A stretch of 60,293 nucleotides of DNA from a virus. A program made the translations under genes and the position numbers. Of the stretch, positions 12,410 to 57,484 are shown piece by piece. Numbering within the stretch: the first letter of the stretch is position 1; each line of letters opens with the position of its first letter. The notes under the pieces were generated by a model. That model was not told the origin of the DNA and searched no databases. It worked only from the letters and a program-made list of their open reading frames with translations. The stretch covers positions 1 through 60,293 of the IMG/VR virus record IMGVR_UViG_3300044796_000664. The stretch is one strand, 5' to 3'.

Positions 12410-12424
12410 GCGAACGCCGTTCGC
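12410..12424. repeat. Dispersed 15-bp palindrome, copy 1 (intergenic)
   Basis: GCGAACGCCGTTCGC: seven-base arms around one centre base. It lies between the holin start (12385) and the stop of the fibre-like gene (12432). Confidence 0.9.
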
Positions 12425-12431
12425 GAAGGCG

Positions 12432-14108
12432 TCAGTTGGGCACGAGGGCGAGGGAAAAGCCGGTCCCGGTATCCGCCGGGCTGATCGGGGCGGTGGCCTG
12501 GACATTAGCCCCCGAGCTCACCGCATATTTGTCGGCGATCAGGATCTGGGCGGCTGAGCCGTTATAGGGCACGCGAAAGCGCCCGTTGGTCCCGGTCGGT
12601 ACCGTCATGTTCTTGGTGCCAGCGTTCCAGTTGCCGAAAATGCTGACCACGGTCTCGTTGGCCGAGGAGGTGGTCAGGCTGGGGGTCTTGAGCGAGGACT
12701 GCGTGCCGCTGATCGACTGGGCGCACCCCGACTGGCTGGTGGTGTAGGTGTTCAGGCAGCCTGTCGCACCGGTGTCCACCGAGGCGACCGTGGTTCCGTA
12801 GTCAAGGAACACATACTCCAGCGAGCGATAGGTCGAATTGGTCCAGGTGAAGGTGTCGGCGCCCGTCTCGCCCGAGCCGGCGAAGCCATAGCAAAGGACG
12901 ATGCTGTCATCCTCGTAGATGTCGAACGCCGGGCCGACCTGAGTCCAGGTGGTCGCGCCGCCGGTGGGGCATTGGACGTTGTGGTTCACGGTGCCGCTGT
13001 CCACCACCGAGGCGATCAGCACGATGAAGTCGCCCTGCGCGATCGGCATCCCCATCACCGTGGTGGTGAGACTGGTCGAACCGCTGGCCAGGACCCATTG
13101 CGCCTGCGGCAACCATTTGAGCGTCGCCTGGTGCGCGGGCGGCCCCGCCGGCCCGTAGGGCGCGTCATAGACCGCGGCGCCGGTGTAGTAGGCCGTGGTC
13201 GACCAGGCCGTGGTGGCCGATCCGGTGTTGGTCTGCATCCCGGCGGCGCCGCCCACCGCGCAGACTTCGGGCTTGCGGCCGGTAGGCTGCGAGCAGTCCG
13301 AGCCCAGCGCCACCGGCTTGCCGCCGGAGATGAACTTGGCCAGCTTGGAGGGCGGGATGGTGTTGGCGCCGGCGCAGTCGCCAAAGGGCGTTCCCGCGCC
13401 CGTGCAGACGATGCTCTCCTCGGCCATGAACAGGTCCGCCAGCCAGGACCATTTGCCATAGGCGGCCCCGCCAGACGTGTTGCCGAGGGCGAAACCGGAC
13501 GAGTTGTTCAGGTCCGGCGAGGTGTTGGCGAAGTCGGCCATGACGAACGAGCCGTCCGCCTTCCGGTCCACCCCATCGACGTAGATCGCCCAGACCTGGG
13601 CGGCGGCGTCGAAGCTCATCAGGTAATGGTGCCAGCCGCCGGAAGAAAACACGGTGTGACCGGCAACGCCATCGATCTTGATCGCATCGGTGGTGTGATT
13701 GCTGCCGGTCGAATTGTTGAAGTTGAATTGCGCCATCACCCCGCTGCTGTCGAACGACGGGCAGATGCCGGGCGAGGTTCCGGCGATGACTTCGCAATGG
13801 CTGGAAGACGGCCCCGTGCCAGCCCCGGACTGGCCGTTGAGCAGGATGGTGGTATTGCCGCCGGGGTTGGAGCCGCCGTTGTTCGCCCCGGCGATCCAGA
13901 AGCTGTAGGTCAGCGTCTTGGAGTTGGTGACGCCCAGCGCGGTCGTGGTGCCGACCCACACGTCCTGCGGAAACAGCGCCCCGATCGAGGACGAATAGGT
14001 GATGCCAGGCCCAAAGCTGCCCGGCCCGACGCCGAGGGTCAGCATCTGGGCGCTGGCCAGCGCTGGCCACAGCAGCGCGGCCAGCCCGATCAGGAGACGA
14101 CGGATCAT
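12432..14108 (-). CDS. LamG/ConA-like exported or fibre-like protein
   Basis: 558 residues from the ATG at 14108 (ATGA overlap with the preceding gene). A Sec signal peptide opens it (MIRRLLIGLAALLWPALASAQ). Residues around 60-260 look like a concanavalin/LamG beta sandwich (SYSFWIAG, GGWHHYLMSFDAA, VYVDGV-like strand AIYVDGVDRKADG). The second half is Ser/Thr/Gly-rich beta structure. The place behind the central tail genes suggests a receptor-binding or surface adhesin role. A signal peptide is unusual for a virion protein. Confidence 0.65.
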   Translation of the reverse strand: MIRRLLIGLAALLWPALASAQMLTLGVGPGSFGPGITYSSSIGALFPQDVWVGTTTALGVTNSKTLTYSFWIAGANNGGSNPGGNTTILLNGQSGAGTGPSSSHCEVIAGTSPGICPSFDSSGVMAQFNFNNSTGSNHTTDAIKIDGVAGHTVFSSGGWHHYLMSFDAAAQVWAIYVDGVDRKADGSFVMADFANTSPDLNNSSGFALGNTSGGAAYGKWSWLADLFMAEESIVCTGAGTPFGDCAGANTIPPSKLAKFISGGKPVALGSDCSQPTGRKPEVCAVGGAAGMQTNTGSATTAWSTTAYYTGAAVYDAPYGPAGPPAHQATLKWLPQAQWVLASGSTSLTTTVMGMPIAQGDFIVLIASVVDSGTVNHNVQCPTGGATTWTQVGPAFDIYEDDSIVLCYGFAGSGETGADTFTWTNSTYRSLEYVFLDYGTTVASVDTGATGCLNTYTTSQSGCAQSISGTQSSLKTPSLTTSSANETVVSIFGNWNAGTKNMTVPTGTNGRFRVPYNGSAAQILIADKYAVSSGANVQATAPISPADTGTGFSLALVPN

Positions 14109-15232
14109 TTGGTGTACAGGCTCACAACGTAGGCGCTGGCGGCCGGAGCCGTGGTGTCGTTGTCGGCGTAGCCGGTGGTGATGCAGACGCTGAGCGCGGT
14201 CGAATAGGCCGCCCCGACGCTGCCGCCGATCTGGATCAGCGCGCCCGCGCCGGAGGTGCTGGCCGGGATCATGAACTCGTCGATGACGGTTCCAGAGCCG
14301 CAGGTCGTGGATTCCTGGGCGGTGTTGTAGGTCTTGACGTAGGCGATGGTCGCCGAGTTGTTCTGGACATAGCCGCCGTAGAGCGTGCAGGCCGCCGTGC
14401 ACACCGCGATCGAGGTGGTGTTGTTGGCCACCTGGATGCGTTTGGTGTTCGCGCCGCCCGTGGTCGAGGCGTTGGTGGTGACGTTGAGCCCGGTGCCGGC
14501 GGTGTTGTTGTAATCCGGCAAGGTGACGCGCAGATCGCCGTCAGGTTCGCAATCGAGCCCGTTCAACTGGGCGGTCGTGTAGGACGGCAGGGCGGTCAAG
14601 GTCTGGCAGCCGACCCAGACGAAGGTGTTGGAGCCCGTCGCCGTGCCGGGCGCGATCGGCAGGCCGACCACGGCCTTGAAGATGCCGGACAGCCAGCCGA
14701 GGACGCCGGAACCGCCGGTCGGCTGGGTGATGCCCGTGCCCCCCGCGCCCTGCGCAGTCGCGATGGCGGCAAGGCTGCCGCCCGCCGTGTCGGGCAGGTT
14801 GCCGCTGATCCCGAACGCCGTGTTGCCGATCGATCCGCCGGCCTGGAAGGGCGAGCCGAGCGTGCTGTTGATGGTCTTCAGCCGGTCGCCGATGGTGTAG
14901 GCGGTCGGGCTGGCGGTGACCGCGCCCAGCTCGCTCGCCGTGGTCCCGGTGTTGGTGGCGGTGCTGGCCAGGTTGCCGCCGGTCTCCAACGCCAGGCCCG
15001 CCGTCGAGATCGTCGCGCCGACGAGGATCTGGCAATTCGCGTCGGAACCGCCGACCAGGCAGACGTGGCCGTCCCCAGAATCGCGGCCAACCAGGTTCAC
15101 TCCATCGGCCGCCTGCGTGCGGCCGACCTGGTCCTGATATGACGTCGGCTTGTCGGTGGTGGTGGTCTGGGCCGCGGCGCCGAACGCCCAGGCGAGCGCC
15201 AGCGCCGCCAGGATGGGCGGGAAGATTTTCAT
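14105..15232 (-). CDS. Exported Ser/Thr/Gly-rich protein, possibly tail-associated
   Basis: 375 residues starting with a signal peptide (MKIFPPILAALALAWAFGAAA, ATG at 15232). The rest is low-charge, rich in Thr, Ala, Gly and Asn, with several Cys (HVCLVGG, ANCQIL, GCQTL). No catalytic motif is visible. It overlaps the next gene by ATGA. It forms a pair with the 12432-14108 protein, both exported and both downstream of the host-specificity tail protein. Confidence 0.6.
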   Translation of the reverse strand: MKIFPPILAALALAWAFGAAAQTTTTDKPTSYQDQVGRTQAADGVNLVGRDSGDGHVCLVGGSDANCQILVGATISTAGLALETGGNLASTATNTGTTASELGAVTASPTAYTIGDRLKTINSTLGSPFQAGGSIGNTAFGISGNLPDTAGGSLAAIATAQGAGGTGITQPTGGSGVLGWLSGIFKAVVGLPIAPGTATGSNTFVWVGCQTLTALPSYTTAQLNGLDCEPDGDLRVTLPDYNNTAGTGLNVTTNASTTGGANTKRIQVANNTTSIAVCTAACTLYGGYVQNNSATIAYVKTYNTAQESTTCGSGTVIDEFMIPASTSGAGALIQIGGSVGAAYSTALSVCITTGYADNDTTAPAASAYVVSLYTK

Positions 15233-15249
15233 GGGGCGGATTCCTTGTT

Positions 15250-15279
15250 GCGCTATCGCCCTGCGGGCTGCTTGAGCGC
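15250..15279 (-). repeat. REP-like palindrome between late genes
   Basis: About 30 bases, ends GCGCT/AGCGC, inner stem GCCC-tgc-GGGC on the plus strand. It sits in the 64-base gap between two late genes. See the finding on this family. Confidence 0.7.
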
Positions 15280-15296
15280 GTAGCCTTGGGGAGGGT

Positions 15297-21694: not shown

Positions 21695-24388
21695 TCAGCC
21701 CGCCCTGAACGGGCTGGCTTCATTCGAGCGCCAGCCGCCCCGCGCCGCCGCATGAACGGCGTTCGCCACATGGGTGGCGTGGTCCTTCAACGCCTTCCTG
21801 AACTCGGCGGGCGACATTCCAGAGGGCCCTCCATGGACGTTGAAGTCGCCGAAGTTGAAGACGTGGCCACCGCCGCCGCCGGAGCCGAAGCCACCTCCCC
21901 GAGCAGCGAGAGCCATCAGATCCCGATTATCGCCGGCGGGGATGACCCGCTCGCCCGCGTGGATCTGGGCGATCATGTCATTGGGGACGTAGTTCGTGCC
22001 GACGTCGAGTGAGGCCAAGGCCCCATAGGCCAGCGCCGCCTCCGACATGGCCGCGCCGAAGGCGGGCGCGCCCAGGTCCAACGGGAAAGGCGCGGCTGCC
22101 ATTGATGCTACCCCTCCAGCGCCGGCAAGCCCCGCCATGGTCGATACCTGGGTGATCGCCAGGGCTTTCTGAGTGGCCGCCGCCGTCGCCGAGGCGGTCG
22201 CGTCGCTCGCCACCTTCTGCGTATTGAACAGCGCATGGATGGAAGCCATCACGGTGTGTTCCATCAGCCATTTCGACACCATCCCCGCGACGGTGTTGAC
22301 GAAGCTGCCGAGCATCTTCTGCCCGATTCCCGCCATGACCTGACCGAAGTTCTTGGCTCCCTCGGCCATCTGAAGCAGTCCCTGGCCGAAGTCCTGCACC
22401 AAGGGCGTGATGGTCTTGTCCCACTGCGCCTTGACCTGCTGAGCGGCCTGCTGTTCGGCGCTGAGGATTTTCTTGTCCGCCGCGGCGTTGGCCGCGACCT
22501 TGGCCGCCTCCATCTGGGCGAAGGCGTCTGTTTCGTCCTTAAGGGCGGCGTTGATTTGGGCGGCCGTGGCCTCTCCGGAACTGATGATCTTTCGATCGGC
22601 CAGGGTCCGGTCGGCATAGATCTGGTCCGCCGCCTCGATGGCGGCCTGGCGCTCCTGTTCGTAGAGCGCCTTCTTCTGGACGAACGCCTGCCGGGCGCTG
22701 ATCACCCCTTCCTTTTCCGCCCGATCGACGGCGGCGACCTGTTCCTCGAGCGAGTCCTGCCTAGCCTTGGCCGCGGTTTCGTCCGCCTTCACCGCGGCAT
22801 CGGACGTGCGCTTGTAGCCGGCAAAGAGGTCGTTGAAGAATGCTTGCGCGGCCCTCCGGCCGTCCGCCAGGAACTTGTCGAAGCCGGCGAGGGCCTTGTC
22901 GCTCCCGCCCAGACTCAGGCCGCCGCCGGCGCCGGAACCAGCGCCTTTCTTGCCCGCATCGGCGCCGGTCGTGCCGGTCCCTTCCTTAGGCAGGGGCGCG
23001 CCCTGAGCTTGGCTCCAGAGCTTCTTTTCCCATGCCAGATAGGCGCTGGCGTCACTGTCGGCCGACAGCCATTCATCCTGGCCCTGCTTCCAGGCCGCCG
23101 CCGCGTCCGCGCCCATCCGCTTGGCGGTGTCCACCACATCGGCCGCGACCCGCTGCGCGCCGGACGTGATGTCGCCCTCGATGGCTCCCCAATTCAGCGT
23201 AAGCGCGTCCCTGGTCACGTCGCCGAAGGTCCTGAAGGCGTCTCCCATCGTCTTGCAGCCGCCGACGACGAGATCGATCAGCGGATCCAGTACGGCATTA
23301 ACCCCCCAGATCGCGCCGTCGATCGTCTTGAACACGAAGTCGACGATCAGCCCGAGGAAGGCGAACAAGTCGGCCAGCGCCTTCACGGCCGTGCCGAGGG
23401 CGTCCATCTGATCCTTGGCCGCGCCGCCCTCCTTGTAGGACTGCACGAAGGCCCCGGTCATGTCGTTGAGGCCAGAGGTGACGTCCTTGAAGGCCGGCGC
23501 CAGGGTGTCCGTCAGGACGTTCCCCAGGCCCATCATGGCGACCTTGTTTTCCTTCTGAGCCTCCGCCAGCGCGATCCCTTTGGACGCGGCCTCCTGGTTG
23601 ACCGCGCCGTACTTTTCGATCTCGTCGTTGGCCTCGGCGATCTGCTCCTTGGTCAGGCCCAGCAGCGGGCCGATTTCCTGGATATTGCGGCCGAACATGG
23701 CCATCGCGGCGGCGATCTTGGCGGGCCCGGCCTCCATGTTCGCCAAGCCCGCAAGGGCCGCACTCAGCAGCTGCGTCTGCGTATAGGCGCCATTGACGTC
23801 GATTCCGGCGGCCTTGAAGGCGTTGGCCGCCTGGGCGCTTCCTTGCTTGGCCGCCGCGAAGCTACGGTCGACCCGCATCATGGCGGTCGATAGCGCATCC
23901 CCAGACACGCCGAACAGGGTGGCCTGGGCGTTCATCTTCTGGACTTCGCCGACGGTCAGCCCGAAGGTCTCGGCGGTCTTGAGCGACTTTTCCGCCGTTT
24001 CGCCCAGTTTGGACGCAAACTCGGCCAGTTCCCTGACCGCGAAGGCCGCGGCAATGGCCTGGCCAAGACCGGCGACGCTCTCGCGCAGGGCGCTGATCTG
24101 CTCGACGTCAGCCTTGAGTCCGGCGAACGGCGAGCTGCCCTTGCTGTCCGCCGCCAGCTTCTTCATCTCGACGTCGAGCGCGGCGATCTGGGCGCGAGCC
24201 TTGACCGTCGCCTCGGCGGCCTTCTGCATTTCCGCGCGCAGTTCGTCGGTCATGCCGCTGGTGCGGGCGGTCTTGGCGAAGCTGTTCAGATCCGCCGTGG
24301 CGGCCTTCAACTCCGACGACAGGACGGCGCGCTTCGACACCAGGTCGGCGACGTCGGCGGTGATGCTGACCGAGATCGAGTTCGCCAT
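21695..24388 (-). CDS. Tail tape measure protein
   Basis: 897 residues. Long Ala/Lys/Glu-rich helical segments at the start (SKRAVLSSELKAATADLNSFAKTA) and near residues 540-660 (coiled coil), a hydrophobic stretch near 345-380 (FLGLIVDFVFKTI), and a Gly-rich end region (GGGFGSGGGGGHVFNFGDF). The size predicts a tail of roughly 130 nm by the usual 0.15 nm per residue rule. AGGAG lies just before the ATG, itself preceded by a strong hairpin and the 5-bp repeat tract. The imperfect palindrome at 21752-21766 lies in its 3' end. Confidence 0.88.
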   Translation of the reverse strand: MANSISVSITADVADLVSKRAVLSSELKAATADLNSFAKTARTSGMTDELRAEMQKAAEATVKARAQIAALDVEMKKLAADSKGSSPFAGLKADVEQISALRESVAGLGQAIAAAFAVRELAEFASKLGETAEKSLKTAETFGLTVGEVQKMNAQATLFGVSGDALSTAMMRVDRSFAAAKQGSAQAANAFKAAGIDVNGAYTQTQLLSAALAGLANMEAGPAKIAAAMAMFGRNIQEIGPLLGLTKEQIAEANDEIEKYGAVNQEAASKGIALAEAQKENKVAMMGLGNVLTDTLAPAFKDVTSGLNDMTGAFVQSYKEGGAAKDQMDALGTAVKALADLFAFLGLIVDFVFKTIDGAIWGVNAVLDPLIDLVVGGCKTMGDAFRTFGDVTRDALTLNWGAIEGDITSGAQRVAADVVDTAKRMGADAAAAWKQGQDEWLSADSDASAYLAWEKKLWSQAQGAPLPKEGTGTTGADAGKKGAGSGAGGGLSLGGSDKALAGFDKFLADGRRAAQAFFNDLFAGYKRTSDAAVKADETAAKARQDSLEEQVAAVDRAEKEGVISARQAFVQKKALYEQERQAAIEAADQIYADRTLADRKIISSGEATAAQINAALKDETDAFAQMEAAKVAANAAADKKILSAEQQAAQQVKAQWDKTITPLVQDFGQGLLQMAEGAKNFGQVMAGIGQKMLGSFVNTVAGMVSKWLMEHTVMASIHALFNTQKVASDATASATAAATQKALAITQVSTMAGLAGAGGVASMAAAPFPLDLGAPAFGAAMSEAALAYGALASLDVGTNYVPNDMIAQIHAGERVIPAGDNRDLMALAARGGGFGSGGGGGHVFNFGDFNVHGGPSGMSPAEFRKALKDHATHVANAVHAAARGGWRSNEASPFRAG

Positions 24389-26513: not shown

Positions 26514-26785
26514 TCAATCCGTCACGTCGGGCAGCGGGCTTTCCCAGATCCCCTCTTCGGCCCCGGCGGCGCCGCGAACGGCGTTCGCGCTCATGGGCGG
26601 CGACCACCACTCCCGGGCGGCGAAATAGCTCGCCAGGAACCGGTCGGCCGGAGGCTCCTCGATGAGCTGGCGCTCCATTTCCGCGTGGAGCGCCCAGGTG
26701 AGGCTGCTCCACCAGTAATCCCGCGTGTGGCCGAAGTACCGGCAGGCGCGCAGGACAATCCCTTCCCAGTTGGGTTCGGGGCCTA
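26514..26785 (-). CDS. T extension of the tail assembly chaperone (read by -1 frameshift)
   Basis: This frame has no start codon of its own, is open across the end of the G gene, and encodes about 90 residues ending in TGA at 26514-26516: PNWEGIVLRACRYFGHTRDY, then WSSLTWALHAEMERQL and FLASYFAAREWWSPP. It lies -1 relative to the G frame. Two GGGGG runs shortly before the G stop (26803-26807 and 26791-26795) are candidate slip sites. Gene pairs expressed this way (G and G-T) are conserved between the major tail and tape measure genes. Contains palindrome copy 2. Confidence 0.75.
26574..26588. repeat. Dispersed 15-bp palindrome, copy 2
   Basis: GCGAACGGCGTTCGC inside the T extension, encoding Ala-Asn-Ala-Val-Arg on the minus strand. 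Confidence 0.9.
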
Positions 26786-28583: not shown

Positions 28584-28787
28584 CTAGGCGGGCTGATCGG
28601 GCTCGGGCGCGCCCTTCGCCGGTCTGGCGGAGGGCTGGCGAACGGCGTTCGCGGCGGACGGATCGAGTCGGGCGATCAGCTCGGGCAGGGCCGCGATGAC
28701 CTGGTTGTAGGCCTCGGTGGCGCGCGCCAGCGGGCCGCCGGCCAGCCGCTCGCGATGCCAGGTGTTGACGATGTCGGCGATGGACAT
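28584..28787 (-). CDS. Small late protein of unknown function
   Basis: 67 residues: MSIADIVNTWHRERLAGGPL, an amphipathic helix (AYNQVIAALPELIARL) and a Pro-rich tail. It contains palindrome copy 3. It lies between the tail terminator candidate and the major tail protein. Confidence 0.5.
   Translation of the reverse strand: MSIADIVNTWHRERLAGGPLARATEAYNQVIAALPELIARLDPSAANAVRQPSARPAKGAPEPDQPA
28638..28652. repeat. Dispersed 15-bp palindrome, copy 3
   Basis: GCGAACGGCGTTCGC; encodes Ala-Asn-Ala-Val-Arg in the 28584-28787 gene. Confidence 0.9.
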
Positions 28788-35393: not shown

Positions 35394-36578
35394 CTAGTTC
35401 AGGCCGGGGCTGGTGAGGGCCAGGGCGTCGATCTGACGCTGACGCCACTCCTGGCTCATGCGGCCATTGGTCGAGCCTGCACTGACATCGGTCCCGTCCG
35501 AGGTCTGGACGGTCTGGTCGGCGGCGTCCTCGGCATCGGCGACGCCGGCGCGGTCCATCAGGTCGGTAACCGCGGCGACGCCCTCGCGGTGCTTGCGCAT
35601 GGCCGAGCGGTACAGGACCAGTGCGTCCTCATGGGCCGTCAGGGCGTCGCGCAGGCAGCGGACGGTCTCGTCCGACAGGGTCTTGCCGGCGCGCAGCTTG
35701 GCGTGCGCCAGGCCGCGGCGGAAGGCGCGGACGCCGTGCGTCGTGGCGGCGCTGATGTGGGCCCGCTCCTCGACCACCAGGATGTCATCGGCCGGATCCT
35801 CGTCCGGCTCCACGTCGCGGCCGGCCAGGGCTTCGGCGATCTCCTCGGCGGTCATGGCCAGCAGGGCGTCGCCGAGATCGGTCAGCGCCGCCGCCAGCAT
35901 GGCCGGGACCGTGCTCGCATCGCCCTCGATGGCGGCTTCCCACTTGGCCATGTCGACGTGGTAGCCGAGCTCCTCGAAGAGATAGCAGAGCTGGGCGACC
36001 TGATAGAGGCCGCGCTGGAAGGTGACCTTGCCGGCGCGAACGGCGTTCGCGACGGGCGCGGACGCCAAGGCGCGGGTTTGCGGGGCCGCAGTCATATCCG
36101 TCATCGCTTCATCTCCATTGGCTCGGGCCGTCACCACGGCGCCGGGATCGGCCGGCACGCTGACGAACGAAAGCTCCAGCAGCTCCCAGCTGCTGATCCG
36201 CTGGCCGCCGCGCGGCTTCTTGGGATCCAGCGGCTCCATCTCGATCGGATCGAAGCCGACCGACACGGCCCGGATCACGCCGGCCTTGGTCAGCCCGCGG
36301 ATCTCGTCGGCCTTGTGCGAGATGCCCGTCGGGGCGAAGCGCACGCGGGCGGTGATCTGATCAGCCGCGACGGACGTGTTCTCGGCGTTGCCGACCGGGT
36401 GATCGGGGTCATGCGACCACAGGACGATCGGGTTGGCGCGATAGTTGTCGAGCCGGCAGCCTTGCGGCAGCAGCACATGGCCGTCGCGCGCCAGGGCGGC
36501 CGTCGACATCACCACCTCGACCTCATCGTCGCCGAGCGCGGTGATCTGGGCGCGGATCAGCTTGCGGAGCATGGTCAT
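35394..36578 (-). CDS. HK97-family prohead protease with long C-terminal extension
   Basis: 394 residues. The protease domain covers about residues 1-155: catalytic His in LWSHDPDHPVG (56/60), and the serine in LELSFVSVPADP (~137-140). The remaining 240 residues are helical and acidic (DVEPDEDPADDILVVEER) and may serve as scaffold, as in phages lacking a separate scaffold gene. Contains palindrome copy 4. Confidence 0.88.
   Translation of the reverse strand: MTMLRKLIRAQITALGDDEVEVVMSTAALARDGHVLLPQGCRLDNYRANPIVLWSHDPDHPVGNAENTSVAADQITARVRFAPTGISHKADEIRGLTKAGVIRAVSVGFDPIEMEPLDPKKPRGGQRISSWELLELSFVSVPADPGAVVTARANGDEAMTDMTAAPQTRALASAPVANAVRAGKVTFQRGLYQVAQLCYLFEELGYHVDMAKWEAAIEGDASTVPAMLAAALTDLGDALLAMTAEEIAEALAGRDVEPDEDPADDILVVEERAHISAATTHGVRAFRRGLAHAKLRAGKTLSDETVRCLRDALTAHEDALVLYRSAMRKHREGVAAVTDLMDRAGVADAEDAADQTVQTSDGTDVSAGSTNGRMSQEWRQRQIDALALTSPGLN
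36036..36050. repeat. Dispersed 15-bp palindrome, copy 4
   Basis: GCGAACGGCGTTCGC; encodes Ala-Asn-Ala-Val-Arg between the protease and C-terminal regions of the 35394-36578 protein. Confidence 0.9.
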
Positions 36579-42496: not shown

Positions 42497-44062
42497 TCAC
42501 CAGTGCTCCCGATCCGCGATGTCGGGATCGATCGGCGCCGAAAAGCCGCCGGAGCTCGGAGGCGGATTGAACGGGTCCTCGGCCAGCTCGCGCGCGTCGC
42601 CGCTCGCCCGTAGCCGCCCGCCCTTGCGCATCAGCTTGCCGTGGCTGTTCTTGCCGTCGCGCAGGATCTGCAGGTCGCCCAGCGCCCGGCCGAAGGTGGT
42701 CTGGGTCATCGGCCGCTCATGGCCGTTGTTCTCGCACCAGGTCTTGTAGTCGTCGTACAGCTCGCCCGCCGGCGTGCGCGCCGTCGGATCAATGATCAGC
42801 CGCTCGGCCTGCCACTCGGCGAACGGATTGGCCCCGCGCCGGTAATCCTCGATCGCCTGGGTCACCAGCGCCGGCGTGGTCAACCCATCGCGCATCCAGT
42901 CCAGCACACCGGCCACGATCCAGTTGAGGATGCCGCTGGCCTCGCCGCGCAGCTTTTCGGGCAGATCGAGGTCCATGTTCTCGGGCGCGAGCTGGTGCTC
43001 GAACAGCACAATGCGGATCCGCCGCCAGATGCCGTCGTCGGTGTCGTTGATCACCGGCCGACGATTGCACTCCAGCACCACCTTGCAGATCGGCTGGAAC
43101 TCGAAGATGCCCTGGCGCAGCTCGCGCGCGGCGACATTGCCGCCGCCGGTGAACGACTTGATGGCCGCGCTGGCCAGCTTCGCCCCGCCCGGCGGCTCGG
43201 CGGTGCAGACCATGCGCGTATCGCCGGCCAGGCGCGCGATGTCGGGACTGGCCTCGCCGCTCTTCTTCAGCCCCGTGTCGAGGAAGGTCTCCACCGCCGA
43301 GCTGCAGGCGTAGCTGCCCAGCACGGCGCGGATCGCATTGACGAAGGTGGATTTGCCGTCGCCGCCCTTGCCCTGCAGGATCACGAACAGCTGCTCCTTG
43401 ACCGACCCAGTCGCGGCGTAGCCGAACAGGCCGCGCAGATAGGCGCGCATCTCCTCCCGCGGCTGGCAGAAACTAATCAGCCCATCGAACTGGGGCGCCT
43501 TGGCCGCCGCATCATAGGGCGCGGCGCACATCCGGGTGAGCCGATCAGCCGGGTCATGCGCCTTGGCGAACTTCACCGTGACCTGGCCCTTGGCGTCACG
43601 CCGGAACTTCAGCGTCCCGTTAGCCACGTTCAGCGTCAGCGGCTGCTGGTCGAAGGCGTCGAGCGCCACGGTCAGATAGCTGGCCGCCTGGGCGAGCATG
43701 GCCGCCGACGATCCGCTGGAGCCCGACCGCTGCACGAAGTCCCACCAAGCCTTCGACGAATTGCCGGCCTTGATCGCCTCCGTGGTTTGCCCGATCAGCC
43801 CGCGCGCCACCTTGTGCGCCCAGCGCCTGGCCAGGTCTTCGCCGGCCTCCAGATCCCAGAACCGCCCGTTGAAGGCGATCCAGCCCCGGTTGCGCAGATA
43901 GAGCAGCTGGGCCGATTGGTGATTGACCATGCCCTCGTCGTCGAACATCCCGCCGACCAGCCGGATCAGCCGCATGGCGTTGCCGAGGTCGTTCAGCGGA
44001 AAACCGGCCAGCTCCTCGGGCGAGGGCGCGCCGGAAAAGGCGAAGGAGCCATCGGCGCTCAT
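42497..44062 (-). CDS. D5-like primase-helicase (SF3)
   Basis: 521 residues. GKGGDGKST at 231-239 is the Walker A of SF3 helicases; EPPGGAKLASAAIKSFTGG and VVLECNRRPVINDTDDGIWRR are the following helicase motifs, and the N-terminal part fits the D5_N family. The C-terminal 100 residues resemble the winged-helix tail (TPAGELYDDYKTWCENNGH) of P4/D5 helicases. With the toprim protein next to it (ATGA overlap) it forms the phage replication initiator unit. Confidence 0.9.
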   Translation of the reverse strand: MSADGSFAFSGAPSPEELAGFPLNDLGNAMRLIRLVGGMFDDEGMVNHQSAQLLYLRNRGWIAFNGRFWDLEAGEDLARRWAHKVARGLIGQTTEAIKAGNSSKAWWDFVQRSGSSGSSAAMLAQAASYLTVALDAFDQQPLTLNVANGTLKFRRDAKGQVTVKFAKAHDPADRLTRMCAAPYDAAAKAPQFDGLISFCQPREEMRAYLRGLFGYAATGSVKEQLFVILQGKGGDGKSTFVNAIRAVLGSYACSSAVETFLDTGLKKSGEASPDIARLAGDTRMVCTAEPPGGAKLASAAIKSFTGGGNVAARELRQGIFEFQPICKVVLECNRRPVINDTDDGIWRRIRIVLFEHQLAPENMDLDLPEKLRGEASGILNWIVAGVLDWMRDGLTTPALVTQAIEDYRRGANPFAEWQAERLIIDPTARTPAGELYDDYKTWCENNGHERPMTQTTFGRALGDLQILRDGKNSHGKLMRKGGRLRASGDARELAEDPFNPPPSSGGFSAPIDPDIADREHW

Positions 44063-45219
44063 GCCATCCCCCGCGCCAGCAGCTCGTCGTTGAAGTCACG
44101 CCCCAGTCCCGGCGCGATCGTGCGAACGGCGTTCGCCGGCAGGCCCGGACAGGCGCGGCGCCAGGCCTGCGTCGCCAAGCCGGCGCAGATCCGCGCCCGC
44201 TCCTCCGCGTCGATCTCGCGCTGATAGCTGCCGCCGCTGGCGCGCCGGGCCTTGACCTTGATCGGGCTCATGTCGCGGTCGACGGCGACGATCACCTCGC
44301 CCCAGGGCCACTTCTCATCCGCCGGCCAGGTGAAGACCGGCCGCTCGGGATCCAGCGTGATGCACTCCGGATCGATCCGCCCCCATTGGTCGGGCAGCCA
44401 TACCCCCTGCAATCGGCCCAGCGACAGCGTCGCCACCAGCCGGCAAGGCCAGCCGGTCAGCATCCCCGCTGACAGGGTCGATTCGATGCCCTCGCCGACG
44501 ATCAGCGGCGCGCGCGACCCGCCCGGCCCCGCCAGCCAGGCCGCGCCCGGCGCTCCAGCCAGACTCTGCGGCCCCAGCATCCGCTTGGCCGGCGTGCGCC
44601 CGCTCTTGCGGCCATCGCGGGCCAGATAGGTCAGATGCACCCCGCCGGTCAGCCCGCCGGGCGCGCGCAGCTGGGCGACCATGGCCGGCAGCCAGATTCG
44701 CGTCCCGCCCTCGTCTTCGCCCCAATAGGCGTTCGGATGGAACCGCAGCCGCGTCAGGGCCGCCCTGGCGACCGGGCCGACGATCCCGCGCCCGGCCAGA
44801 TAGGCCTCCGCCAGCGTCCCGCTCGCCGGGACCGCCTCGCGCCAGATGCGCACCGCCGCGTGTGCTGTCGCTCCAGTCGGCGAAATGGCCGCCGGCGCTG
44901 AGCGAACCGGAATCGGCCGCGTGACCCCCGCCGGCGCCGCGCCCACCAGGCGTTCGGCCGCCTCGCGGGGCGTTCCGCCGCGCAGCCGCTGCTCCAGATC
45001 GATCACGTCCCCGCCCAGGCCGCAGGCGAAGCACTTGAACACCCGCGCCTCCGGATCGACCGAGAACGCGCCGTCCGACCGCTTGCCCTTGGACGCCCCG
45101 CACAACGGGCATTCCCCGCGCATCCGCCGCCCGGCGCGGAACAACGTCCCACCGGCGACGGCCTCGATGCTGGCCTCGCGCGCGCGATCGAACAGTTCGG
45201 AAAGGTCGGGAACCGTCAT
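44059..45219 (-). CDS. Zinc-finger toprim DNA primase
   Basis: 386 residues from the ATG at 45219. The zinc ribbon uses Cys37, Cys40, Cys63 and Cys66 (CPLC...CFAC), like CHC2 primases. The toprim domain follows with LIVGEGIESTLSAGMLTG and VIVAVDRDMSP carrying the acidic metal ligands. It overlaps the helicase gene by ATGA. Contains palindrome copy 5 near the end. Confidence 0.88.
   Translation of the reverse strand: MTVPDLSELFDRAREASIEAVAGGTLFRAGRRMRGECPLCGASKGKRSDGAFSVDPEARVFKCFACGLGGDVIDLEQRLRGGTPREAAERLVGAAPAGVTRPIPVRSAPAAISPTGATAHAAVRIWREAVPASGTLAEAYLAGRGIVGPVARAALTRLRFHPNAYWGEDEGGTRIWLPAMVAQLRAPGGLTGGVHLTYLARDGRKSGRTPAKRMLGPQSLAGAPGAAWLAGPGGSRAPLIVGEGIESTLSAGMLTGWPCRLVATLSLGRLQGVWLPDQWGRIDPECITLDPERPVFTWPADEKWPWGEVIVAVDRDMSPIKVKARRASGGSYQREIDAEERARICAGLATQAWRRACPGLPANAVRTIAPGLGRDFNDELLARGMA
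44122..44136. repeat. Dispersed 15-bp palindrome, copy 5
   Basis: GCGAACGGCGTTCGC near the 3' end of the toprim gene; encodes Ala-Asn-Ala-Val-Arg. Confidence 0.9.
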
Positions 45220-45234
45220 CTGGCCCCCATATTT

Positions 45235-45284
45235 TCGGACAAAAACGCCCGATTTATCTTGACCGTCGGACAATTATGCCCGAT
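45235..45284. promoter_or_regulatory. Direct-repeat operator between primase and hicA
   Basis: TCGGACAAAAACGCCCGAT (45235-45253) and TCGGACAATTATGCCCGAT (45266-45284) match at 16 of 19 positions with a 31-base step, three helical turns. The location upstream of hicA fits a HicB-binding operator that may also affect the divergent primase operon. Confidence 0.65.
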
Positions 45285-50006: not shown

Positions 50007-50081
50007 TCAACCCGCTGATGGCGGGAAAATTTCGCATTGAACGCTCTTACGATCAACGCGCCCTGGGCGTCTCATCGACCC

Positions 50082-50750
50082 ATGTCGTTGACCGAATCCC
50101 CAGAACGCGCCGAACAGAAGCTGATGGGCTCCGCCCTCCGCAATCTGCGCGAGCGCGCCGGCCTGCGCCAGGCCGACATCGCCGAGGCCCTCAACCTCAC
50201 GACCCAGGCCTGGCAGAAATACGAGGCCGGGGAACGGAAATTCAAGCATGAGAAGCTGGTCCCAATTCTCGCCGCGCTCAAGGCCACAGAGGACGATCTC
50301 AACGCCGAGCGCGCCCGAATCCTCGGGCGCCCTTACCCATCCAGGGTTGACACCAACCACGCCCCCGACCGAGGTTTAGTCTTTGATGTCTATGGCCGCG
50401 CGCGAGCGGGCGCCCAGGGCGTCCAGGTGTACGATGTGGGGGAGCCGGTGCGTACGATCGATTTGAGACAGATTCTGGGGCGGTCGACGGATGCGCTGGA
50501 AGTAGCGGGCGACAGCATGGTGCCCTGGGCCGAACCAGGCGAGATCGTGCTGTTCGACCGCGACCGTTACCCCAAGCGCGGCAGCGGGTGCGTGATCGAG
50601 ACCAAGGCCGGCGAGTACTACGTCAAGATCTACGAGAAGTCCGACGGTTCGACCCTGTTCGCCAAGGAGCTGAACCCGGAAGAGCGCATCGTCGCCTTCC
50701 CGATCAAGGATCTGAAGGGCGTCTACGCCATCCGGCTCCGGGGCGACTAA
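50082..50750 (+). CDS. CI-like repressor with S24 autoprotease domain
   Basis: 222 residues from the ATG at 50082 (a TTG at 50037 extends it). Residues 13-75 are an XRE helix-turn-helix (LRQADIAEALNLTTQAWQKY). The peptidase S24 domain has Ser145 in AGDSMVPWAEPGE and Lys182 in YYVKIYEK; the Ala109-Gly110 bond (GRARAGAQG) is the expected cleavage site. Such repressors hold lysogeny and self-cleave when RecA is activated by DNA damage. Confidence 0.9.
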   Translation: MSLTESPERAEQKLMGSALRNLRERAGLRQADIAEALNLTTQAWQKYEAGERKFKHEKLVPILAALKATEDDLNAERARILGRPYPSRVDTNHAPDRGLVFDVYGRARAGAQGVQVYDVGEPVRTIDLRQILGRSTDALEVAGDSMVPWAEPGEIVLFDRDRYPKRGSGCVIETKAGEYYVKIYEKSDGSTLFAKELNPEERIVAFPIKDLKGVYAIRLRGD

Positions 50751-51624: not shown

Positions 51625-51639
51625 GCGAACGGCGTTCGC
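51625..51639. repeat. Dispersed 15-bp palindrome, copy 6 (intergenic)
   Basis: GCGAACGGCGTTCGC in the 218-base gap between the lipoprotein gene and the rightward operon, close to the presumed promoters of both. Confidence 0.9.
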
Positions 51640-52535: not shown

Positions 52536-52900
52536 GCGACTTCTACAGCGAGCACGAGCGCCGAGCCGCCAAGACCTATCGATGCGACGAGTGCCGCACC
52601 GAGATCCTGCCGGGGACCCGCTACGTCTCATGGTTCCAGATCTTCGACGGTGACGCCTTCGGCGGCCACCTCTGCACCTTCTGCCGCGACCTCCGGGCGG
52701 AGGCGTGGATCGCCTTCGATTGGTACGGGCCGGAAGAGGCTCCCGACATGGGCGAGCTGCGGAGCTACCTGCGCGACGAGCACGGCGTCACCAACGCCGC
52801 GGCTTGGTACGGCAAGCGCGTGGCCGCCCGCGAAGCCGCCCGCAACGAGAAGTTCCGCGTCGATCGCGCCTTCGCCACCTATCAAGGAGCCGCCGAATGA
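52532..52900 (+). CDS. Zinc-finger protein of unknown function
   Basis: 122 residues. CDECRTEILPGTRYVSW and GGHLCTFCRDLRAEAW give a four-Cys zinc site. DFWYG-like and helical regions (KRVAAREAARNEKFRVDRAF) follow. ATGA overlaps on both sides place it in a coupled operon with the ParB-like gene. Confidence 0.6.
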   Translation: MSDFYSEHERRAAKTYRCDECRTEILPGTRYVSWFQIFDGDAFGGHLCTFCRDLRAEAWIAFDWYGPEEAPDMGELRSYLRDEHGVTNAAAWYGKRVAAREAARNEKFRVDRAFATYQGAAE

Positions 52901-54501
52901 CCGCCGCCATCACCCCCCAGGCCCTGCGCGCCAACGCCGAGCTGCTGCGCTGCCTGAACACCGGCGAGGGCGCCCACACGCTCAAGACCCTGGCCGAGGC
53001 ACTCGGCCGAGACCTGTCCAACCTGCGCAAGACCGTCGCCACGCTGGAAAAGCAAGGCCTGCTCGGCGGGCTCCCCGGCGGCCTGATCATCCTCACCCCG
53101 GCTGGCCGAACGGCGGCGGTCTCGCTGCCCGCTCCCGCGCCCAAAGCGAACGGCGTTCGCGATGAACGCTTCGACGAGCCGATGACCTGGCTGCGCCACG
53201 ACCAGCTCGTCCCCCATCCCAAGAACCCGCGCCGTGAGTTCGATCCGGTCGCGCTCGACGAGCTGCGCCAATCGATCCTGCTGGCCGACGGTCTGCTGCA
53301 GAACCTGGTGGTGACGCCCAAGCCCGACGATCCGGAGCATTTCTGGATCCTTGCCGGCCATCGTCGCTGGCGCGCCATCGGGCAGGCGATCGACGAGGGT
53401 GACTGGCCGCCGCACCGTCCGCTGCCCTGCCAGGTCCGCGCCGACCAGGCCCCGCGCGAGCGGCTATCCCTGGCGCTGATGGAAAACATCCAGCGCACCG
53501 ACCTGACCCCGCTGGAGGAGGCCCAGGCCTATCACACCCTGGCCAGCTCCGGCGCGCGCGGCGAGCCCGGCCTGACCAACGTGGAGATCGCCGACATGGT
53601 GGGCCGCACCCCGCGCCACGTCCAGATGCGCCGCCAGCTGCTCGACCTTCCCGACGAGGCCAAGGCCGACCTCGCCGCCGGCAAACTCAACGTCACCCAG
53701 GCCCGCGCCAAGGTGCAGACGCCGAAGGCGCTTCCGCCCTTGGCGGCCCTGGCTCTCGCGGAACTGGCCGACAAGATCGCCCGCGATCCGGACCCTGACG
53801 GACGCGCCTCGACCCGGGTCAACGCTTTCGAATCGGCCGAAGCGCGCCAGCTCGTGCGCGCCGGCATGTGCGGTTTCTTCGTCTCCGGTACAGGCGCCGA
53901 AATGCGCGACTGCGCCGTTCTGACAAGCTCCGGCCGAGAGTGGGCCGACGCCCAGGTGCGGGCGGCGAAGACGATCGCCCAGCTTATCGGCCGCCTCCGC
54001 GCCGCCGCCGGCAAGCCGGTCAACCTCGCAGAGGGTCAATACAGCACGCCCTGGCTGAACGTCCCACTCGCCGCCGCGCCCGTCATCCCGGCCAAAGCGT
54101 CCCCTTCCGTCACCACCGGGCCTGTCCCGGTGGCCCATGCCGAGAACCCGCTCAGGTCACCGCCGAAGCCCGCCGATCCCTTCATGGACCAGATCCGCGA
54201 AGCCGCCAGGGAGCCCGAGGACGCCGCCGCCTTCGCCGATGACCTCCAGGCCGTCGCCCAGATGACCGACACCGTGCGCGACATCCTCGCCTTCAATCGG
54301 GGCCGCGAGACCGCGGCCTGGGCGCACACGCCTGACAACGCCGCCCTCGCCAGCCTGACGATCACGGCGCTGCGCAAGGGCGACGCCTCTTGGGCCATGG
54401 CCTGCCTGGCCCACCTTCGCCGGCGCGCCGGCGCCATGGGGTACGGTGACGAGATCGCCAAGGCCATGGTCCGCGCCGGCCTGGAGCCGGTCGAGCCATG
54501 A
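52897..54501 (+). CDS. ParB-like DNA-binding protein with N-terminal winged helix
   Basis: 534 residues from the ATG at 52897 (ATGA overlap). Residues 1-80 form a winged helix (LKTLAEALGRDLSNLRKTVA). The ParB/Srx region includes PHPKNPRREFDPVALDELRQ, LAGHRRWRAIGQAI and ENIQRTDLTPLEEAQAY (ParB boxes II/III), then a helix-turn-helix (TNVEIADMVGRTPRHVQMRR). A helical C-terminal half includes a repeat-derived insert (VTTGPVPVAHAEN). No ParA gene is next to it. Contains palindrome copy 7. Possible roles: partition-like, replication or gene control. Confidence 0.8.
   Translation: MTAAITPQALRANAELLRCLNTGEGAHTLKTLAEALGRDLSNLRKTVATLEKQGLLGGLPGGLIILTPAGRTAAVSLPAPAPKANGVRDERFDEPMTWLRHDQLVPHPKNPRREFDPVALDELRQSILLADGLLQNLVVTPKPDDPEHFWILAGHRRWRAIGQAIDEGDWPPHRPLPCQVRADQAPRERLSLALMENIQRTDLTPLEEAQAYHTLASSGARGEPGLTNVEIADMVGRTPRHVQMRRQLLDLPDEAKADLAAGKLNVTQARAKVQTPKALPPLAALALAELADKIARDPDPDGRASTRVNAFESAEARQLVRAGMCGFFVSGTGAEMRDCAVLTSSGREWADAQVRAAKTIAQLIGRLRAAAGKPVNLAEGQYSTPWLNVPLAAAPVIPAKASPSVTTGPVPVAHAENPLRSPPKPADPFMDQIREAAREPEDAAAFADDLQAVAQMTDTVRDILAFNRGRETAAWAHTPDNAALASLTITALRKGDASWAMACLAHLRRRAGAMGYGDEIAKAMVRAGLEPVEP
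53146..53160. repeat. Dispersed 15-bp palindrome, copy 7
   Basis: GCGAACGGCGTTCGC; encodes Ala-Asn-Gly-Val-Arg between the winged helix and the ParB domain. Confidence 0.9.
54108..54145. repeat. Host-type palindromic repeat inside the ParB-like gene
   Basis: Hairpin CCACCGGG / CCCGGTGG within CGTCACCACCGGGCCTGTCC; read in frame as VTTGPVPVAHAE. Confidence 0.7.
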
Positions 54502-56471
54502 CCCCGGACATCATCATCGACCTGTTCGCCGGCGGCGGCGGGACCTCGACCGGGATCGAAGCCGCGACCGGCCGCTCCCCGGACATCGCCGTCAACCACG
54601 ACGCCGAGGCCCTGGCCCTGCATGCGGCCAATCATCCGGACACGCTGCATCTGTGCGACGACATCCGCCAGATCGACGTGGTCGCCTTGCTCAGCCGGCC
54701 GGAATTCCTCGGCCGGCGCGTGGGCCTGTTGTGGGCCTCGCCGGACTGCAAGGATCACTCCAAGGCCAAGGGCGGCGTGCCCAAGGACAAGAACATCCGC
54801 GGCCTGGCCTGGGAGGTGCTGCGCTGGACCGCGGCGATCCGCCGGGCCACCGGCAAGCCGCCCCGGACCATCGCCCTGGAGAACGTCGAGGAGTTCGCCG
54901 ACTGGGGTCCGATCCACCGCTATGGCAAGAACGCCGGCCGGGTGATGAAGCGCCGGCGCAAGGAGACCTTCCGTCTCTGGAAGGCCAACCTGGAGAGCCT
55001 CGGCGGTCGCCTCGAGGAACGCGAACTGGTCGCGGCGAACTACGGCGCGCCGACCACCCGCAAGCGGCTCTATGTGGTCTGCCGGTTCGACGGCGATCCG
55101 ATCGTCTGGCCGGAGCCCACCCATGCGCCGCGCCACGCCAAGGGCCGTCAGGGCGAGCTGTTCGATGCCGGGCAGGGGCTGATACCCTACCGCGCCGCAT
55201 CCGACATCATCGACTGGACGCAGCCGATTCCCTCGATCTTCGGCCGCCGGAAATCCCTGGCGCCCAAGACCGAGCGCCGCATCGCCCGCGGCATCGACCG
55301 GTTCGTGATCCGAGCCCAGCGGCCGTTCATCATCCCGGTGACCCACAGCACCGGCGGCGACCGGGCCTACGACGCCGGCGATCCGCTGCGAACGGCCACC
55401 GCAGCCAAGGGCGGCGACTTCCAGCTGGTCGCGCCCACCTTCCTGCCGGTGACCCACGCCGGCGACGATCGGGCGCACGGTCCGGAGGATCAGCTGCGCA
55501 CGGTGACGGGCGCGCATCGTGGCGAACTGGCGGTCGGCGCCGCCTTTCTCAACCGCACCGACATGCAGAGCGCGGCCGAACGGAACGGCATCCACTCGCC
55601 GGGCGAGCCGCTGCGGACCTTCACCAGTGCGGGCGGTTTCGCAGCGACCACCGCCTACCTTGGCCGCCAGTTCGGCTCGACAGTCAGCGGGCGCGACCTG
55701 ACCGAGCCGCATCCTGCGGTGATGACGGACGGCGCGGGCGGCAAGAGCCAGGTGGTGGCGGCCCACATCGCGCGCCAGTTCGGCGGGTCGGTCGGTTCTG
55801 ACCTCGCCGAGCCGGTCGGGACCGTCATGCCAGGCGGCAGCGGCAAGACCCAGCTCGTCGCCCCGGTGATCGACAAATACTACGCCACCGGCGTCGCCCA
55901 GGAGGCGGCCCGGCCGCTCGATGCGGTGACCGCCAAGGCCCGCTTCGGCCTGACCGGGGCCTTCGTGGAGCAGGCCAACACCGGCGTGATCGGGCATGCG
56001 GCCGACAAGCCAGTGTCGACCATCCTGGCCGCCGGATCGCACCAGCGCCTGGTCGGCGCCGACCTGGAGCCATGGGACGCGGCCCTGGCCGCCATCGGCG
56101 CGCCGCCCGGATCGAAGCGGCGCGAGGTGCTGGCCTTCCTCTGGTCGCATTTCGGCGCGCCCACCGAGGCCGAGTGGGCCGATCCGGCGGCGACGATCCA
56201 GGGGCGGCTGCGGTTCGGCCTGGTGATCCTCGACGGCGCCACTTGGCAGATCGTCGACATCGGCATGCGCATGCTGACCCCGCGCGAGCTCTACAGCGCC
56301 CAGGGATTCCCGCCGGGCTACGTCATCGAACTGACCCTGGCGGACGGCCGCACGCTGACCAAGACCGCACAGACCCGGATGGCCGGGAACTCGGTCTCGC
56401 CACCGGTGGCGGCGGCGATCATCGGGGCCAACTGCGCATGGCTGCGCGAGCAGCGACAGGTGGCCGCATGA
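54498..56471 (+). CDS. C5 cytosine DNA methyltransferase with repeat-rich target region
   Basis: 657 residues. Motif I DLFAGGGGTSTGIEA (8-22), catalytic Cys84 in ASPDCKDHSKAKGG (motif IV as PDC, known in a phage-rich subgroup), ENV at 128-130 (motif VI), and MAGNSVSPPVA near the end (motifs IX/X). Between about 280 and 520 lie seven imperfect repeats of 33-40 residues with a DPLRTATA / EPLRTFTS-type core, in the place of the target recognition domain. ATGA overlap with the ParB-like gene. No restriction enzyme nearby. Confidence 0.9.
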   Translation: MTPDIIIDLFAGGGGTSTGIEAATGRSPDIAVNHDAEALALHAANHPDTLHLCDDIRQIDVVALLSRPEFLGRRVGLLWASPDCKDHSKAKGGVPKDKNIRGLAWEVLRWTAAIRRATGKPPRTIALENVEEFADWGPIHRYGKNAGRVMKRRRKETFRLWKANLESLGGRLEERELVAANYGAPTTRKRLYVVCRFDGDPIVWPEPTHAPRHAKGRQGELFDAGQGLIPYRAASDIIDWTQPIPSIFGRRKSLAPKTERRIARGIDRFVIRAQRPFIIPVTHSTGGDRAYDAGDPLRTATAAKGGDFQLVAPTFLPVTHAGDDRAHGPEDQLRTVTGAHRGELAVGAAFLNRTDMQSAAERNGIHSPGEPLRTFTSAGGFAATTAYLGRQFGSTVSGRDLTEPHPAVMTDGAGGKSQVVAAHIARQFGGSVGSDLAEPVGTVMPGGSGKTQLVAPVIDKYYATGVAQEAARPLDAVTAKARFGLTGAFVEQANTGVIGHAADKPVSTILAAGSHQRLVGADLEPWDAALAAIGAPPGSKRREVLAFLWSHFGAPTEAEWADPAATIQGRLRFGLVILDGATWQIVDIGMRMLTPRELYSAQGFPPGYVIELTLADGRTLTKTAQTRMAGNSVSPPVAAAIIGANCAWLREQRQVAA

Positions 56472-56791
56472 CCCGCTCCCACCTCCTCACCGACGCCGTC
56501 GCCTTCCACCTCGACACCGCTGACGGCCACCTGGCGCGCGCCACCGAATGGCTGGCGGCCTCCGCGAAGGCCACCGATCCCGACTGGCGCGCCTGGACCC
56601 TCGGCCACGCCATCCGCGCCCACGCCGAGGCCGAGCGCCACGCCGAATTCGCTTCCCTGCTGCTGGAGACCTCCGCATGCCCCGACCCCGCTTCCACCTC
56701 GCCCGCGCCGCCGGCGCGCCGGACGAGCGCTTCCGCACCCTTGACCGGCTGGCTGCCCGACTGGCTGAGCTTCGTCAGGATCGCCCGCTGA
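56468..56791 (+). CDS. Small protein of unknown function
   Basis: 107 residues from the ATG at 56468 (ATGA overlap). The first 70 residues look genuine (HLLTDAVAFHLDTADGHLAR, WTLGHAIRAHAEAERHAEFA, helical); the last 35 overlap the next gene in another frame and look random. Confidence 0.5.
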   Translation: MTRSHLLTDAVAFHLDTADGHLARATEWLAASAKATDPDWRAWTLGHAIRAHAEAERHAEFASLLLETSACPDPASTSPAPPARRTSASAPLTGWLPDWLSFVRIAR

Positions 56792-56985
56792 GCCTCGCCG
56801 AGGCCTTCCTGCCCCGAGTCGCAGGGCCCAACGGCCCATGCACGGCGGTCCGCACCGAGGACGGCGACCTCCTCGGCCACGCCTTCGTCCCCCAGGAGCT
56901 GCTGCAGGCCGCCCTGCGCCGCCTCGGCGAACCGCCCAGACCCCGCCAGTGGACCGGCCGGGCGCAGCGGGAGGCGCGGGTCTGA
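56677..56985 (+). CDS. Small protein of unknown function
   Basis: 102 residues from the ATG at 56677 (GGAGAC upstream), overlapping the previous gene by 115 bases. DERFRTLDRLAARLAELRQD and LLGHAFVPQELLQAALRRLG are helical, charged stretches. Unassigned. Confidence 0.5.
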   Translation: MPRPRFHLARAAGAPDERFRTLDRLAARLAELRQDRPLSLAEAFLPRVAGPNGPCTAVRTEDGDLLGHAFVPQELLQAALRRLGEPPRPRQWTGRAQREARV

Positions 56986-57266
56986 TGGACGAGCAACCCC
57001 GGATGCAGCTGCTGCCGCCCGCGGCTCACCTTTGCCAGGAATGCGCCACCGGCCACCTGGCGGCCGAGCCGCACAACGCCCAGAGCCTGTTCTACCAGAT
57101 GCGGTTCAAGATGGAGACTGGCAACGATCCGTCCTGGCTGACCGCCATGGCGCATTGCGCACCGGAGGTTCAGGCCGCCTGGAAAGCGGGCCTGGAGGGC
57201 ATGGGGATCGATGTCGACGCCGGCCAGATCAATCCGCCGGCCCAGCGCAAAAAGGGGCGGTCCTGA
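56985..57266 (+). CDS. Small Cys-containing protein
   Basis: 93 residues; start shares a base with the previous stop (TGATG). HLCQECATGHLAAEPH may be a metal site. Helical remainder ending PAQRKKGRS. Function unknown. Confidence 0.5.
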   Translation: MDEQPRMQLLPPAAHLCQECATGHLAAEPHNAQSLFYQMRFKMETGNDPSWLTAMAHCAPEVQAAWKAGLEGMGIDVDAGQINPPAQRKKGRS

Positions 57267-57484
57267 TGCCCCGCGGATTCCTCTCCGAAGACCACGACGC
57301 GAACGCCGTTCGCCGCTCCGACCTGGTGGACATCGCCGCCGAGGTCCGCGCCGAAACCGCCAAGGCCTGGCTGGTCTTCGACGGCGCCCGCGAGGCCTGG
57401 ATCGCCAAGGCCTGGGCCGAACGCAACCCCGACGGGACCTTCACCATGCCCGGGCACTGGGCCGTTGAGAAGGGCCTGATCTGA
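57266..57484 (+). CDS. Small protein of unknown function
   Basis: 72 residues; TGATG junction with the previous gene. LVDIAAEVRAETAKAWLVFD and REAWIAKAWAERNPDGTFTM read like a compact alpha/beta protein. Contains palindrome copy 8 near its start. Confidence 0.55.
   Translation: MPRGFLSEDHDANAVRRSDLVDIAAEVRAETAKAWLVFDGAREAWIAKAWAERNPDGTFTMPGHWAVEKGLI
57299..57313. repeat. Dispersed 15-bp palindrome, copy 8
   Basis: GCGAACGCCGTTCGC; encodes Ala-Asn-Ala-Val-Arg in the 57266-57484 gene. Confidence 0.9.

Follow-up and report, generated by a model that had tools for sequence, protein, structure and literature searches.

Dispersed palindromes in an integrating phage as candidate loading sites for its own orphan ParB-type protein

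ParB-family proteins load as CTP-dependent clamps at a specific DNA site and then slide (PMC11790492, PMC12704722), and prophage-encoded orphan ParB-like proteins have been reported to be widespread (PMC12704722). Here we describe a 15-bp palindrome, GCGAACGNCGTTCGC, that recurs throughout the viral record IMGVR_UViG_3300044796_000664, the whole of which (60,293 bases, GC content 0.69) is referred to below as the window. Sequence comparisons suggest that these palindromes are probably parS-like loading sites for the ParB-type protein that the phage itself encodes.

Several described systems resemble this arrangement in part. KorB of plasmid RK2 is a ParB-type CTP clamp that acts on specific operators (OB), slides and represses at a distance (PMC11790492); the core of the window protein matches KorB in profile and fold, and the dispersed palindromes, which across records go together with a ParB-type gene, would be the counterparts of OB if this protein reads them. 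KorB, however, works with KorA, and the OB operators are plasmid-borne and stand upstream of the promoters they target, whereas the system described here belongs to integrating phages, has sites that are mostly in genes and evenly spaced, uses another palindrome, and has a protein with an extra N-terminal helix-turn-helix (HTH) and a long C-terminus. Noc of Bacillus subtilis is a ParB relative without a ParA role that spreads from about 70 scattered palindromes, the NBS (PMC4331003); by this precedent, scattered sites can serve one nucleoprotein system, although Noc acts on a host chromosome through a 16-bp even palindrome (PMC7383237), has a membrane helix and controls division. Phage N15 carries its own ParB, SopB, with four IR centromere sites (PMC7205306), but its prophage is a linear plasmid with SopA, whereas integrase genes are present here and ParA is nearly always absent. 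The stoperators of mycobacteriophage L5 are also dispersed phage sites (about 24) read by one phage protein, but that protein, a repressor, is different and the sites are asymmetric, oriented and predominantly intergenic (PMC5712189). Lastly, the window protein shares a ParB-CTPase fold, residence in a prophage and the lack of a ParA-binding motif with the prophage orphan ParB-like group of PMC12704722; the passages cited from that paper give no DNA sites, and what is new here is the sites. No published account of the motif was found in open-licence PubMed Central, where the match in an E. coli phage paper was a string inside a PCR primer and the four other matches were to papers that by title concern fungal infection, microRNA arrays, fat tissue and lupus.

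Palindromes and the ParB-like gene

The first-pass annotation, made from the letters of the window, had listed eight perfect copies of GCGAACGNCGTTCGC and three weaker ones. All eight were confirmed, as were two of the weaker copies (window positions; no strand is assigned to these palindromes):
12410..12424, no strand, perfect copy, immediately before the holin gene or in its 5' part
26574..26588, no strand, perfect copy
28638..28652, no strand, perfect copy
36036..36050, no strand, perfect copy, within the prohead-protease gene (35394-36578)
44122..44136, no strand, perfect copy, within a primase-type gene (44059-45273, DUF7146/Zn_ribbon_DnaG)
51625..51639, no strand, perfect copy, not in a called gene, upstream of the rightward genes leading to parB
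53146..53160, no strand, perfect copy, within the parB-like gene
57299..57313, no strand, perfect copy, outside called genes
6645..6659, no strand, 14/15 copy
21752..21766, no strand, 13/15 copy with the core GAACGNCGTTC intact

The third weaker copy, at 50792, has three mismatches and is at noise level, because the window holds 24 matches to GCGAACGNCGTTCGC with at most three mismatches against a shuffle average of 13.1. That far fewer than one perfect copy should arise by chance was borne out by 100 dinucleotide shuffles, none of which contained one, and GCGAACGNCGTTCGC ranks first in the window when every gapped palindrome with 6- or 7-letter arms is counted. Two copies had been described as intergenic, one of them before the holin gene. 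With our own approximate GC3-based gene caller, the copies at 51625 and 57299 fall outside genes, but the one at 12410 falls in the open reading frame (ORF) 12083-12505, within its 5' part and ahead of the holin domain (residues 59-104), and is in phase 0 provided the long start of that frame is used.

The palindrome recurs well beyond the window. A scan of viral contigs found it in at least 119 stretches, and 10 of 30 records picked for holding a copy (window included) carry 7-13 exact copies; otherwise dissimilar phages have 4-13 exact copies each. For pooled counts we used 28 records, excluding G034, G069, G080, G082, G083, G084, G085, G090, G096, G099 and G101 (no site, variant sites, or fragments). 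These 28 hold 146 sites, 96 inside called genes and 50 outside. Conservation of the flanks, which had been said to be missing, is weak or none over these sites (at most 0.34 bits per flanking position).

The gene that site-bearing records have in common is parB-like:
52897..54501, + strand, ParB-like protein, proposed reader of the sites, with an N-terminal winged-HTH-like domain, a ParB_N CTPase-type domain, HTH_ParB and a long C-terminus

When the window ORFs were compared with 14 other motif-rich records (2-13 exact copies), ParB-like homologues were found in 13, the fourteenth being a 6-kb fragment, and the next most common window gene (DUF7146/primase) was found in 7. With a ParB-core profile and records of at least 20 kb, 14 of 16 records with two or more copies gave a match at E<1e-30, as against 0 of 8 with one copy; 8 of the 16 had contributed to the profile, and three of the 8 single-copy records gave weaker matches in smaller frames of 285-394 residues. 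Records below 20 kb were set aside, with two copies in G002, G004 and G011 (no match) and G015 (partial match), and one copy in G021 and G024 (no match). Among the readers proposed in the first-pass annotation, which had taken the palindrome for a protein-binding site, the ParB-like protein is thus the one to which the sequence evidence points.

By its CTPase-fold and HTH domains, the predicted protein falls within the ParB/Spo0J CTPase family. The longest ORF of the gene starts at 52705. ParB_N (PF02195, 6.6e-11) is directly followed by HTH_ParB (PF17762, 5.4e-9), and the ParB_N boxes LLQ, GERRxRA and ENxQR...EEA are present, with several residues invariant or near-invariant in alignments. 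Profile matches in the PDB to Spo0J, ParB, Noc and KorB range from 6.5e-42 to 1.1e-17 for chains covering both domains, and Foldseek matches the core fold to ParB, Noc and KorB structures (model mean pLDDT 65, pTM 0.36; core mostly 70-90). As for close whole-protein relatives in viral contigs, there were three pattern matches, none confirmed, and all ParB matches in an annotated phage collection were below 60% identity. The ParA-binding motif (L/F/I)G(K/R)G(L/F/I) was found in none of 176 ParB ORFs scoring above 100, as judged on their first 400 residues with no positive control and with some genes counted in both locus and record. A ParA-type ATPase (PF13614) had no match in 32 of 34 records and none above cut-off in 33 of 34, the exceptions being G005 (partial match above cut-off) and G079 (below cut-off). 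The G005 match, at 54185-54355, is short, covering 57 of 177 positions.

Recognition helix, spacing and conservation

With sampling by the protein and not by the site, two scans with ParB alignments yielded 144 loci not chosen by the motif apart from the seeds (in one scan the best 80 of 163 were kept). Dereplication at 90% left 104, of which 100 had the helix position aligned; sites were counted in the full record where fetched and otherwise in the locus. From the 144 loci 25 were chosen, mostly high-scoring, and 19 of these 25 records were read nearly in full. Where the recognition helix has Q after V, 12 of 16 loci (9 of 13 without the search seeds L283, L284 and L349) have at least two GAACNNNGTTC (GAAC-N3-GTTC) sites, as compared with 4 of 84 with other residues; at a GC content of 0.62 or more, the figures are 12 of 13 and 1 of 12. 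The position appears to correspond to 177 in the Caulobacter ParB numbering of PMC7383237, according to which residues of this HTH region set ParB/Noc specificity.

Of 39 records whose sequence was read wholly or partially, 32 have a GAAC-type palindrome at the top of the ranking; among the 19 of them that had been picked by ParB, the figure is 12. The variant GCGAACCNGGTTCGC occurs in G083 and G101, and GTGAACGNCGTTCAC (GTGAACG-type) or TGAACG-type sites in G082 and G080, both of which have the helix V-Y-Q-R, not V-Q-x-R. An extended TGCGAAC...GTTCGCA is seen in G001, G009 and G073, and the helix region of their ParBs has an insertion. No convincing palindrome of their own was found for more distant ParBs in G090 and G099. 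Separately, the octamer palindrome GCTCGAGC is in very large excess in G084 (L441-L443; 90 versus 4 expected) and G096 (L482-L484; 48 versus 7), which carry ParB relatives with other recognition helices.

Spacing was analyzed in 28 of the 39 records, with at least four sites each; G034, G069, G081, G084, G085, G090, G091, G013, G027, G096 and G099 were left out (no GAAC-type site, fewer than four sites, or fragments), and some of those used are related (G001/G009, G086/G087). The mean coefficient of variation of spacing was 0.52; uniformly placed sites gave 0.79, and k-mers taken from these records and matched in number gave 0.81. Among 4000 or 5000 draws there was none as even as the observed spacing, and 25 of the 28 records fell below the control median. 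Median spacings per record run from 2.3 to 9.8 kb, with a middle value of 4.7 kb.

Conservation at the same places in related prophages, the lack of which would by the first-pass annotation weaken a functional reading, was seen in close relatives but not in distant ones. Between the G009 and G179 prophages, five orthologous sites are 15/15 identical within flanks of 72-88% identity; between G009 and G001, two sites are unchanged and three have one change. Across 79 alignments with flanks below 98%, with reciprocal pairs and alignments of paralogs counted in, 30 sites are identical versus 8.1 expected. The comparison of G009 with G232 (flanks mostly 85-99%) shows differences at several of the outer letters and one disrupted site, and the site is mostly lost between distant phage pairs. 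The sites thus turn over as phages diverge. The 95.7-kb G009 record (L267-L271) holds 21 copies of the 13-bp core and a pair of ParB-like genes and seems to consist of two neighboring prophages, of which one matches the G232 stretch and the other is related to G001 and G179.

Proposed role and alternatives

The neighbors of parB in the window include:
50037..50750, + strand, S24/HTH repressor, same strand as parB
54498..56471, + strand, C5-cytosine methyltransferase of 657 residues, directly after parB and overlapping its end by 4 bases
58674..60293, + strand, serine recombinase (integrase), running to the end of the record

The strand that carries parB is the minority strand in 28 of 30 records. 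Ten genes near parB in ten records, picked by size, were all integrases (nine tyrosine and one serine), G179 and G241 being among the records with an integrase beside parB. An S24 repressor lies upstream of parB on the same strand in the window and G018, the two looked at.

In the mechanism we propose, a ParB dimer would contact the palindrome with its HTH, then shut into a CTP clamp and move by sliding onto neighboring DNA, such that a loading site every few kilobases would place the whole prophage within clamp reach and allow it to be coated. Binding of this protein to these palindromes is what we infer from the associations above. The most likely use would be long-range silencing or organization of the prophage in the manner of KorB on RK2, which is the weakest step; silencing or organization in lysogeny is favored because parB has integrase genes and, in the records looked at, repressor genes next to it, and because of the N-terminal DNA-binding domain. 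A fuller picture, about which we are somewhat more doubtful than confident, is that of a prophage chromatin, wherein an orphan ParB clamp encoded next to the integrase would load at parS-like sites set ruler-like every 4-5 kb, cover the entire prophage and only the prophage, and silence or shield it as one domain, with site letters and recognition helix co-evolving across many phages.

A number of observations weigh against the loading-site reading. Sites are present with no ParB found in G014, G023, G034, G134 and a 20-kb slice of G205, perhaps because these records are partial or possibly so. In support of it, 23 of 32 parB-like genes in site-bearing records contain a site or have one no more than 300 bp away, versus 12.9 expected (G034, G084, G085, G090, G096 and G099 excluded), but the site within parB stands at a homologous place in several phages, so the cases are not independent. 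The helix association draws in part on the three seeds and sits inside one clade, where it is confounded by ancestry. G085 (L444-L445) has a close ParB with the same recognition-helix Q and no GAAC-type palindrome, while G241 and L320 have sites without Q at this position. The main motif is also present in G080 (2 copies) and G082 (3 copies), and a V-Y helix is not predictive, as 4 of 6 ParB-sampled Y phages have no site. Taken alone, the window (median spacing 7.4 kb) gives no significant evenness (P about 0.2), and G006, G050 and G016 show no evenness of spacing at all. The structure model of the C-terminal ~145 residues is uninformative. Finally, 50 of 146 sites lie outside called genes, as compared with a non-coding share of 15% of the DNA, and a role linked to promoters would fit this as well.

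Other uses of the same protein were weighed. A ParB coat might keep host silencing or defense proteins off the phage DNA, as an anti-silencer like VirB, or might serve in tethering or occlusion after the example of Noc. In its favor are VirB, a relative of ParB whose anti-silencing depends on CTP (PMC10770331), and the even tiling over many records, which suits coating, but the gene context points to a lysogeny module, and we consider this use unlikely. A little less likely still is a lytic use, in which ParB reads the sites to guide the modification, packaging or compaction of phage DNA as it replicates ("ParB-Tls"). It has been suggested that ParB-like proteins of phages steer modification while DNA is packaged (PMC6536676); in the window parB is followed by a methyltransferase gene, and sites extend through structural genes such as the prohead protease. 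Methyltransferase homologues, however, are found in 3 of the 14 motif-rich records (G005, G009 and G010 only), parB is opposite in strand to most genes and adjoins an integrase in the records given above, and it lies more than 12 kb from the terminase gene in the window.

Two roles suggested in the first-pass annotation fared poorly. Classical partition is unlikely given the near absence of ParA, the lack of its binding motif and the integrases beside parB (10 of 10); integrase-bearing phages need no plasmid-type partition. The second role, as operators or stoperators of the S24 repressor, we regard as very improbable. The gene is encoded nearby in the window and the L5 repressor is a precedent for dispersed sites, but homologues of the S24 repressor occur in 3 of the 14 motif-rich records while the site is identical, such that this candidate reader was rejected; moreover, in contrast to the L5 stoperators, these are perfect palindromes, 96 of 146 of them within called genes.

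A host origin was our initial idea after the viral scan, whereby phages would have copied a chromosome-organization, LexA-like or other host motif. Scattered perfect palindromes do resemble Noc sites, and among 49 bacterial genomes found via the motif, copy numbers of one or two are seen in 42; among the 7 with at least three, G052 (3 copies) and G060 (5 copies) have them mostly scattered in the genome, which also counts against our reading. Clustering is seen in others of these seven, with 4 of 4 copies within 33 kb in G073, 5 of 6 within 33 kb in G050, and 4 of 6 on a single 6-kb contig in G034. The host motif was rejected on a draw of 149 genomes of one family, the Caulobacteraceae (G073 and G053 among them), by which it is largely contradicted: 118 have no copy, and the total is 68 copies, as compared with 8 in the 0.06 Mb of the window. 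At least three copies occur in 7 of the 149, and in six of these every copy lies in one stretch of 18-78 kb (34 copies: G198, 11 in 78 kb; G179, 8 in 35 kb; G241, 5 in 30 kb; G073, 4; G232, 3; G134, 3); in the seventh, G163, 2 of 3 are on one contig. The clustered stretches of G073, G179, G232 and G241 were read, and all encode a ParB-like protein. The equal density across host chromosomes that would have marked a host motif was therefore looked for and not seen. These distributions indicate that the palindrome belongs to phages and not to their hosts, and we give a host motif almost no weight; a host factor as reader finds no support, and the likeness to an altered LexA box was set aside because the sites are confined to phages. 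In a metagenome-assembled genome, STE_202 (G065; L186), another of the seven found via the motif with at least three copies, 16 copies of the 15-mer are found, many on short contigs and some 87 bp apart in L186; these resemble repeat arrays and would be a phenomenon of another kind.

The six in-gene perfect copies of the window all fall in phase 0, as had been noted, but over the 28 records phase 0 accounts for 62 of the 96 sites in genes, with 20 and 14 in the two others. From codon usage by itself 70% would be expected in phase 0, and therefore a constant phase is no property of the system; the single phase is mostly a reflection of codon usage, and a functional meaning for it was rejected. 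An artefact of a frequent Ala-Asn-Gly-Val-Arg peptide in GC-rich genes, for which this shared phase would speak, is the least credible explanation of all, given that synonymous-codon shuffling with proteins fixed (500 shuffles) yields 0.14 in-gene copies (maximum 2) versus the 6 observed, that codon usage predicts 0.03 in-gene copies versus the 96 found in the 28 records, and that a third of sites lie outside called genes. The exact motif is used by 64 of 77 Ala-Asn-[GADV]-Val-Arg peptides, though GTT makes up 9.6% of Val codons, and such use points to selection at the DNA level.

Taken as loading sites, these palindromes supply a likely target site, with variants, for one clade of orphan ParB-like proteins, and binding, sliding distance and a role in lysogeny become directly testable. 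They suggest a mechanism, related to that of centromere proteins, with which phages may mark their own DNA inside a host chromosome and coat it.

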